64,000 bases of DNA from Planctomycetota bacterium (lineage in GTDB: Bacteria; Planctomycetota; Planctomycetia; Planctomycetales; Planctomycetaceae): assembly GCA_016872645.1 (NCBI GenBank), contig VGZH01000011.1, positions 1-64,000 on the forward strand, given 5' to 3'. Positions 1 to 50,733 of the stretch are shown piece by piece. The notes below the pieces were generated by a model. That model was given only the letters and a program-made list of their open reading frames with translations. It did no database searches and was not told the origin of the DNA. The first letter of the stretch is position 1. Each line of letters begins with the position of its first letter. The position numbers and the translations under genes were made by a program.

Positions 1-564
1 GTGTCACACTTGATCGTGTCGAACGCCAGCGGCGGTTTGAATCCGAAACTCCGTTCCGGGGACATCCTGCTGATCGACGACCACATCAACCTGATGGGTG
101 CCGGTGGAGGGGCACTCTTGCCCGTCTGCCCGGAAGAGAGGGACAAGAGCACGCACCCTACAACCGCAGCTTCCCGTTCGTTCTACGATCCAAGGCTGAT
201 GTCACTCGCAGAACGCATCGCGTGCGAACAGAACATTCCGTTGCGGCGCGGCACCTACATCGCGATGCTCGGCCCGAACTACGAAACTCGTGCCGAGTAC
301 CGCTGGCTGCGCACGCTTGGAGACGTCGTGGGGATGTCCACTGTCCCCGAAGTGCTCGCCGCCGGAGAACTCGGAATACCGGTCGTGGCATTCTCGATGG
401 TCACAAATGTTTTCCGCCCGGACGATGTTCAGCAAACCACCAGCGACGAAGTCATCAAGGCCGCCAGCAATGCCGAACCCAATCTCCGGAGAATTGTCAC
501 GAGGCTCCTGAAGGAGTGTACTTCCGACTCACCCCTCGCCCTTCGCCCCTCACCACTCCCATGA
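1..564 (+). CDS. Purine nucleoside phosphorylase, 3' part (5' end outside window)
   Basis: This enzyme cleaves purine nucleosides with phosphate to base plus ribose-1-phosphate in cytosolic salvage. The visible 187 residues carry family landmarks of the trimeric PNP type: SNASGGLNP (about 7-15), DDHINLMG (26-33), GPNYETRAEY (91-100) and GMSTVPEVLAA (111-121). The frame is open at the first base, so the N-terminal third is missing because of the window edge. Between LMG and YDPRL, where homologues carry a conserved loop, the protein has about 28 unrelated residues encoded by a palindromic repeat (see separate entry). The C-terminus (SPLALRPSPLP) is also low-complexity. The stop overlaps the deoA start (ATGA), so the two salvage genes are probably translationally coupled. 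Identity is clear, but whether this copy is active is uncertain because of the insertion. Confidence 0.9.
   Translation: MSHLIVSNASGGLNPKLRSGDILLIDDHINLMGAGGGALLPVCPEERDKSTHPTTAASRSFYDPRLMSLAERIACEQNIPLRRGTYIAMLGPNYETRAEYRWLRTLGDVVGMSTVPEVLAAGELGIPVVAFSMVTNVFRPDDVQQTTSDEVIKAASNAEPNLRRIVTRLLKECTSDSPLALRPSPLP
106..161. repeat. Palindromic element type I, in frame inside the PNP gene
   Basis: The left arm GGGCACTCTTGCCCGTC and the right arm (GGGACAAGAGC...CACCCTAC) are imperfect inverted repeats. The same core occurs intact at 49032-49104 and as a left half at 10867-10887. The element adds a multiple of three bases and has no stop in the PNP frame, so it is translated as residues about 34-55. 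It replaces or lengthens the loop between DHINLMG and YDPRL. Assignment rests on sequence likeness to the other two copies. Confidence 0.7.
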
Positions 565-9808: not shown

Positions 9809-10870
9809 ATGACAGACGCTGAAATTCGCTCGAAACTCGGGCAACTGACCGATCCTGAACTTGAAATCTCCTTCGATCGACTCGGCCTAATTCGGTCAGC
9901 GCAGTCGACGTCCGATGCCATCAAGATCGAAGTGCAACTGCCAACTCCAGCCTACCCGAAGCGTGAGCGACTTGGTGACTTGATCACCAGCGCGCTGGCC
10001 GGTTCTGCAGGCGGTCGCAGGGTCGACGTCACTTATTCATGGCAGGTGGTCGGCCGCGAAACTGGCGGGAAGATCGGGCTGCGCATCAAGAACGTCGTGG
10101 CGGTCGGCAGCGGCAAGGGCGGCGTTGGCAAGAGCACAACGGCAGCCTCGTTGGCCTATGGCCTGAAACATTTCGGAGCGAAAGTCGGACTGCTGGACGC
10201 CGACGTGTATGGGCCGAGCATTCCGCTGCTCACCGGCGCGAAAGGGACGCCGATCGTTCGCGAAGTCGAACTCGCCAACGGCCAGAAGATTCAGCGACTG
10301 GAACCAATTGACGCGGACGGCATGAAAGTCCTCTCGATTGGTTTCCTGATCCGCGAAAATCAGGCGGTCATCTGGCGCGGCCCGATGCTGCACAAGCTGC
10401 TGACGCAGTTCCTGCAAGAGACCGATTGGGGCGAACTCGACTACTTGATCATCGATCTGCCGCCGGGAACGGGAGACGTGTCGTTGACTCTGTCGCAATT
10501 ACTCGGCTTGGCAGGAGCGGTCGTTGTCTGCACGCCACAGAAGGTCGCGCTGCTGGACGCCATCAAAGCGATCAGCATGTTCGATCAAGTGAAAATTCCC
10601 GTGCTCGGCATTGTCGAGAATATGTCAGGAGACATCTTCGGACGTGGTGGCGCAAAGGCGAAGGCGCTCGAGCTCGGTCTGCCGTTTCTCGGTGAGATTC
10701 CCATCGATGCGACAATTCGCGTTCGCGGCGACGACGGCCAAATTGCCTCGCTGTTCGAGGACAACAATCCCGTGAAGTCACATCTGCTGCGAATGACCGA
10801 GAACATCGCGTTGCAAATCGCGAAGCGCGTGATCGTCGATGCGCCGATGCCGTCTCTGGAAATTCTGTAG
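9809..10870 (+). CDS. mrp: Mrp/ApbC-type Fe-S carrier P-loop ATPase
   Basis: The protein has 353 residues. An N-terminal MIP18/DUF59 domain (LTDPELEISFDRLG, 1-85) is fused to an NBP35-type ATPase. The deviant Walker A is GSGKGGVGKST (100-110), followed by GLLDADVYGPSIPLL, PPGTGDVSLTLSQL and the switch region GIVENMSGDIFGRGGAKAK. The C-x-x-C cysteines that bridge a 4Fe-4S cluster between monomers, normally right after VENMS, are absent, so it may carry the cluster differently or act only as an ATPase. The stop TAG lies within a GTAGGATGG palindrome arm. It probably functions in cytosolic Fe-S cluster delivery. Confidence 0.93.
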   Translation: MTDAEIRSKLGQLTDPELEISFDRLGLIRSAQSTSDAIKIEVQLPTPAYPKRERLGDLITSALAGSAGGRRVDVTYSWQVVGRETGGKIGLRIKNVVAVGSGKGGVGKSTTAASLAYGLKHFGAKVGLLDADVYGPSIPLLTGAKGTPIVREVELANGQKIQRLEPIDADGMKVLSIGFLIRENQAVIWRGPMLHKLLTQFLQETDWGELDYLIIDLPPGTGDVSLTLSQLLGLAGAVVVCTPQKVALLDAIKAISMFDQVKIPVLGIVENMSGDIFGRGGAKAKALELGLPFLGEIPIDATIRVRGDDGQIASLFEDNNPVKSHLLRMTENIALQIAKRVIVDAPMPSLEIL

Positions 10871-10887
10871 GATGGACACTCTTGCCC
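10867..10887. repeat. Left half of palindromic element type I, containing the mrp stop codon
   Basis: GTAGGATGGACACTCTTGCC matches the left arm of the complete element at 49032. The TAG inside it is the mrp stop codon. No matching right arm is visible downstream, so the copy is partial or decayed. Confidence 0.6.
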
Positions 10888-11035
10888 GTCCTGCCTTCCT
10901 TCTTTTTTGTCCCACGCACCTGCCGACGGCGGTCGGGCTAGAGCGCCCCGCCTGCGATGACGTTTCGAATTCCCAGCCGGTGGCTTGCATTACTGGGGCG
11001 ATGCCGCGAAGCCATGCTGACTCGGACAGAGTGGC

Positions 11036-33848: not shown

Positions 33849-33953
33849 AGTCCGATGGATTCAAAATCAGCACGACACGCCGGCGAGTCATCGTATCCTG
33901 CGAGACTGTGACCACTCGCTTGCGCGTCGTGCTGATTCTCAAATCACGGCGCC

Positions 33954-36674: not shown

Positions 36675-36712
36675 ACGTAGCTCACGGTGATGGGTGGCAG
36701 AGTCGGAACCAG

Positions 36713-36807
36713 ACTAACCCGAAGCGCCAGCGAGGGCGAGTGTTTGTTCGCAGAGAGGCCGGGCAAAGCGGGTGAAGCGCTCGCCCTTGCTGGTGCTTCG
36801 GGTTAGT
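36713..36807. repeat. Palindromic element type V in the divergent region before leuD
   Basis: ACTAACCCGAAGCGCCAGCG... and ...CTGGTGCTTCGGGTTAGT pair over 30 bases with three mismatches around a 35-nt centre. A decayed relative occurs at 4696-4789. It occupies the space where promoters of DUF1501 and leuD would be expected; I do not see clear -35/-10 pairs. Confidence 0.8.
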
Positions 36808-36849
36808 ATGGGCTCCGTTTTCGAGAACTTCTAACTCGCGACGAGAATC

Positions 36850-49031: not shown

Positions 49032-49104
49032 CGTAGGATGGGCACTCCTGCCCGTCCTTATGACTTGGTGAAACGAACGGACGGGCGGGGGTGCCCATCC
49101 TACG
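49032..49104. repeat. Complete palindromic element type I before purH
   Basis: CGTAGGATGGGCACTCCTGC... and ...GGTGCCCATCCTACG form 26-bp arms with two mismatches around a 21-nt loop. It is the best-preserved copy of the element found inside the PNP gene and at the mrp stop. The GGAGAGG ribosome site of purH begins two bases after it, so transcripts could carry this hairpin in the purH leader. Confidence 0.85.
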
Positions 49105-49113
49105 GAGAGGATC

Positions 49114-50733
<1,620 letters not shown>

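Follow-up and report, generated by a model that had tools for sequence, protein, structure and literature searches.

A palindromic element within a purine nucleoside phosphorylase gene

The window (the whole stretch of 64,000 nucleotides analysed here) is the start of contig C11 and opens in the middle of a gene, whose beginning lies on contig C99. The end of C99 overlaps window positions 1–285 with two SNPs; because of this overlap, the full gene, designated PNP2, can be read across both contigs, and the element described below is present in both. SNP 127 falls within the element, in a Cys/Arg codon, and SNP 171 is the second difference between the contigs; the two suggest strain variation. 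PNP2 is predicted to be a purine nucleoside phosphorylase (PNP) by profile and fold, as tested on its ortholog in genome G009. This ortholog matches Pfam family PF01048 (1.5e−39) and, both by sequence and by its AlphaFold model, resembles PNPs, best of all that of Planctomyces limnophilus (4m1e). The fold and most active-site motifs are those of trimeric PNPs (PF01048; 4m1e).

Table 1. Positions of the PNP2 fragment and of type-A elements in the window
Feature	Position	Strand	Remarks
3′ part (187 codons) of PNP2, predicted purine nucleoside phosphorylase paralogue	1..564	+	5′ part on contig C99
Type-A palindromic element, decayed, reading in frame as GGALLPVCPEERDKSTHPT	106..161	+	orthologs G002, G003, G007 and G009 also carry type A here
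Left arm of the element, GGAGGGGCACTCTTGCCCGTC	106..126	+	106–127 identical (22/22 nt) to C32:42475-42496, another copy in the window genome
Centre of the element, variable, TGCCCGGAAGA; contig C99 version CGCCCGGAAGA	127..137	+	
Right arm of the element, GAGGGACAAGAGCACGCACCCTAC, degraded	138..161	+	
Type-A half-element, GTAG end	10867..10891	+	gives the TAG stop of the Mrp/ApbC-like gene 9809–10870
Intergenic type-A palindrome, intact; arms of 26 nt with 92% complementarity	49032..49104	.	clean palindrome, dozens of relatives in the genome

The original prediction held that a palindromic repeat is translated in frame inside this gene at 106–161, at a normally conserved loop after DHINLMG, and that the same palindrome lies intact at 49032–49104. 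The coordinates proved right. The PNP frame runs without a stop across the element (DHINLMG-AG-GGALLPVCPEERDKSTHPT-TAASRS-FYDPRL), which matches a type-A element of a relative with 89% identity over 44 nt (E = 1.1e−9) and has about 40 weaker matches in the window genome, many of them from the same family. Its left arm agrees with the 49032 copy at 19 of 21 nt. Folding of the latter gives z = −9.1, against −11 and −10 for the copies within PNP2 of G002 and G006, respectively; the element at 106–161 is degraded and now a poor palindrome (z = −1.6).

NPLxGxNDxxLGPRFPDM stands at this place in 4m1e, in distant planctomycete PNPs and in PNP1, the second PNP of the genus, and all non-PNP2 PNPs examined, PNP1 included, keep it. 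What has to be amended is the idea of an inserted copy. The copy is a member of the family and lies in frame, but it has decayed and takes the place of the canonical loop rather than being added to it. Unlike trimeric PNPs with their loop NPLxGPNDxxLGPRFPDMS, PNP2 carries repeat-derived sequence, and the conserved RFPxMS is not found in it. By the established numbering, the Phe of RFP is the equivalent of human Phe159. Human Phe159 reaches into the active site of the neighbouring subunit, and PNP2 lacks a corresponding residue.

Several other repeats occur in the window. The palindrome at 49032–49104 ends 9 nt upstream of a purH-like gene (ATG at 49114) and may affect translation initiation of this purine-synthesis gene. 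The stop codon of the Mrp/ApbC-like ATPase gene (10868–10870) is part of the initial GTAG of the half-element. Large imperfect inverted repeats at 36709–36811 and 33860–33942, with arms of 37 and 29 nt, respectively, belong to neither type A nor type B, and an Rfam scan of the window gave no match.

Turnover of the PNP2 loop

We compared the window genome with eleven others of the same genus, apparently mostly from freshwater lakes, all genomes compared being metagenome assemblies; several public records of these relatives bear misleading species labels. Ten of the eleven encode a PNP2 ortholog. Outside the loop, these ten are 60–85% identical, and the flanks are strongly conserved but the loop is not. 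With the window genome included, 10 of the 11 loops derive from repeats: type A is found in the window genome and four relatives, type B in four, type C in one, and type D in one, nested in A. Near-perfect type-A palindromes occupy the site in G002 and G007, giving the peptide VGRALLPVSS(A/E)ETGKSARPT (the tryptic peptide spanning the element in G002 would be ALLPVSSAETGK). The loop of G009 is a rearranged type A akin to that of the window, with a small palindrome, TCCGCCATTGGCGGA, in place of part of the left arm, and in G003 a type-A element (VGRALLPVS...) has lost its right arm to the nested type-D palindrome; partial replacement is directly visible in both. G006 and G010 have type B (VGQVFNLP...GQVENLP(H/Y)), whereas G004 and G011 have a 27-nt single-hairpin form of it (VGQVFNLPH), as expected from a deletion between the internal direct repeats of B. 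In G005 the loop consists of a repeat rich in GCCGA (type C), of which the retrieved loci of the genus contain several further copies. The exception is G001, a distant relative with a long loop, for which a search among the retrieved loci found no recognisable repeat. At least four families are therefore represented at one site of PNP2. As a separate observation, PNP2 of G002 and G010 (L068 and L072) ends in ..RGQVF, apparently the start of a type-B element supplying the end of the protein.

In a tree based on PNP2 without the loop and the downstream pyrimidine phosphorylase, the window genome, G009, G006, G004, G005 and G011 form clade 1 (support 98–100%), the other branches being weakly supported. 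Since each clade includes both A and B, and clade 1 also C, the loop type changed at least three times, whatever the weak branches are. The type-A copies of PNP2 have a common centre, CGGAAG, in forward orientation in the window genome, G009 and G003 and reversed in G002, with CGAAG in G007. This hints at an old single insertion of A that was inverted once (G002/G007) and later replaced in some lineages. All type-A copies in PNP2 may thus stem from one insertion, in which case there would have been fewer independent insertions of A. A single type-A insertion behind all PNP2 loops is ruled out by the B, C and D loops.

Element families across genomes

The genome-wide search for the element suggested by the original prediction revealed many copies within genes, read in one frame, and an empty site. 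The statistics are based on the retrieved loci together with 20 randomly chosen 20-kb pieces of G006, and the gene calls behind the frame, length and depletion counts on a home-made codon model. In type B, a hypervariable centre is enclosed by near-invariant arms (CGTGGGGCAGGTTTTCAACCTGCC ... GGGCAGGTTGAAAACCTGCCCCACG), with a modal total length of 59 nt, and type A follows the same design at about 59–73 nt; overall, elements measure about 57–73 nt. Type A is present in all 12 genus genomes and seven further members of the family, type B in 11 of the 12 (window genome included) and four further members; both are absent from the sampled genomes of other families.

G006 has about 200 candidate type-B sites. 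Only 16 of 43 sampled copies are genic, compared with 86.8% genic sequence (p = 5e−14), i.e. type B is depleted from genes. Net length is a multiple of three in 15 of the 16 genic copies versus 15 of 27 others (Fisher p = 0.014). All 14 distinct genic type-B copies in the first G006 sample are in the VGQVFNLP frame, as are 28 of 29 over all loci, orthologs included; this frame reads VGQVFNLP..GQVENLPH. For type A, 10 of 11 genic copies over all loci lie in one frame. The host proteins include CinA, an ATP-grasp enzyme, a glycosyltransferase, DUF1549/1553 proteins and a halogenase-like oxidoreductase, and in-frame elements are located within the Pfam domains CinA and ATP-grasp_3. The ATP-grasp gene provides an empty site in G009 and G011 (LPN|GEPIL and LPR|GEPIL), which in G006 is filled as LPD-VGQVFNLPVPAGQVENLPH-GEPIL, a clean insertion of exactly 57 nt. 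CG stands at both ends, and with one empty site a 2-bp duplication and a plain insertion are indistinguishable. In CinA, one old in-frame insertion is shared by five species and diverges roughly as fast as the flanking sequence.

Two further loci are worth recording. A CusA-like RND efflux protein of G005, G006 and G009 (L101, L108, L112) has a long extra region in which a type-A element lies in frame, together with other sequence resembling repeats. In a GTPase-like protein (L196, L236), G005 and G006 share the position of a type-B element, but its arms differ (VGQVFNLP versus VGQVSNLP), possibly through arm conversion or as a second case of turnover. A plasmid search for the type-B peptide returned none.

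Relationship to known repeats

Rickettsia palindromic elements (RPEs) are palindromic repeats found in and between genes, including in-frame copies that appear as a conserved peptide in conserved proteins (PMC2229807, PMC10969869). The likeness to RPEs put forward in the original prediction holds in that the planctomycete elements are palindromic, occur in many genic and intergenic copies and are inserted in frame in conserved protein genes, with a single preferred frame and a clean empty site. However, RPEs measure 105–146 bp, whereas the elements described here have 57–73 nt, come from Planctomycetota, combine near-invariant arms with a hypervariable centre, and succeed each other as different families in one loop. 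By this comparison, they are best regarded as analogues of RPEs rather than RPEs, set apart by length and phylum.

GTAG REPs are also reported inside genes and in R. baltica, and the closest earlier parallel to the landing-site pattern is Xanthomonas recB, where different REPs are reported at about the same site (PMC3733652). Type A is similar to these repeats in starting with GTAG and in being able to give a gene its TAG stop. Yet its GTAG is paired with the CTAC of the far end inside the stem, leaving no unpaired tag, and type B is devoid of GTAG. RAYT transposases were considered as the mover and rejected, because the elements do not flank the Y1_Tnp genes, common as these are (0–16 per genome): 1 of 30 Y1_Tnp (RAYT-like) loci has an A or B element within about 1.5 kb, and G011 contains type B with no Y1_Tnp match. 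MITEs with coding potential (Correia, ERIC and QMITE, reviewed in PMC2229807 and PMC10969869) are likewise short, non-autonomous and bounded by terminal inverted repeats, and can fuse in frame with genes. The elements studied here differ from them in being palindromic over their full length, with a tiny variable centre; a possible 2-bp CG duplication was seen once, and a parental transposon was not found.

How the loops arose

If the PNP2 loop were an ordinary one, conserved or variable, its likeness to the palindrome would be due to chance. The window copy alone, degraded and poorly folding, would fit this, but the family match (E = 1e−9), the near-perfect palindromes of two families at the same site in G002, G006, G007 and G010, and the conservation of the canonical loop in PNP1 and other planctomycetes speak against it. 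The original prediction had raised the possibility of the same loop in close relatives that lack the palindrome; the orthologs contradict it, their loops being entirely different and mostly encoded by other palindromes. These loops refute the ordinary-loop explanation, which retains practically no probability. It is also very unlikely that PNP2 is a decaying pseudogene in which insertions are neutral, even though most genomes have the canonical PNP1 as well and PNP2 has no Phe159-bearing loop. Outside the loop the gene is under purifying selection (pairwise dN/dS of 0.08–0.20 across the genus), the orthologs contain no frameshifts or stops and have many invariant columns, and in G006, G007 and G009, assemblies 91–94% complete, PNP2 is present and PNP1 was not detected. 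Strong hairpins lie within the coding sequence here, as they do in known bypassing elements, and the hairpin could in principle be removed from the product by ribosomal bypass or mRNA splicing, so that the peptide never appears. Such removal needs neither a single frame nor a stop-free insert, yet 28 of the 29 genic type-B copies share their frame, and the window copy kept its frame though its hairpin was lost. This preference for one frame favours translation through the element, and we consider either form of removal extremely unlikely.

The repeats might instead be positively selected as new substrate-gating loops with adaptive turnover, which we regard as improbable. At this position Phe159 from a neighbouring subunit would normally close off the active site, the loop is exchanged between lineages in an otherwise conserved enzyme, and nearly all PNP2 loops (10 of 11) are repeat-derived. 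However, the loops range from 15 to about 50 residues with no common length or sequence, and, overall, genes contain fewer of the elements than expected. In addition, modelling of the loop, as the original prediction had proposed, gave for G009 and G002 PNP2 a confident AlphaFold core and a loop with pLDDT below 50, as if disordered. All three observations fit mere tolerance. It is similarly improbable that the palindromes constitute a natural loop-swapping system in which successive PNP2 active-site loops are selected for altered substrate use; if true, selfish DNA would be driving the diversification of a metabolic enzyme.

We favour a scenario, to which we assign a probability of about 0.82, in which mobile palindromes are mostly purged from genes and the PNP2 loop is a tolerant, recurrent landing site. 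Several families of palindromic elements of about 57–73 nt would be, or would formerly have been, active in the genus, probably moved by a putative transposase. Most genic insertions would be purged, through selection against frameshifts and newly introduced stops. Survivors would combine a net insertion that is a multiple of three, reading of one of the open frames of the palindrome, yielding a mild peptide, and a site in a flexible loop. PNP2 presumably lost the canonical loop after DHINLMG, with its Phe159 equivalent, and the remaining loop would tolerate almost any peptide rather than benefit from it. Freed in this way, the loop would have received insertions again and again, one palindrome being overwritten or replaced by another (types A, B and C, with D inside A), while purifying selection continued to act on the remainder of the enzyme. 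In this scenario, the elements would be translated into protein through the hairpin.

Implications

Protein-coding palindromes have been presented as almost peculiar to Rickettsia and Wolbachia. Coding palindromes would now appear to be widespread in a free-living freshwater planctomycete genus, with statistics on frame, length and depletion. In the literature searched we found no mention of these peptides or of this pattern in planctomycetes, nor four-family loop turnover in one enzyme or frame statistics for Planctomycetota. PNP2 adds an enzyme loop occupied in turn by different repeat families, and its orthologs provide a natural series for testing how far an enzyme tolerates selfish inserts and whether such inserts become useful.
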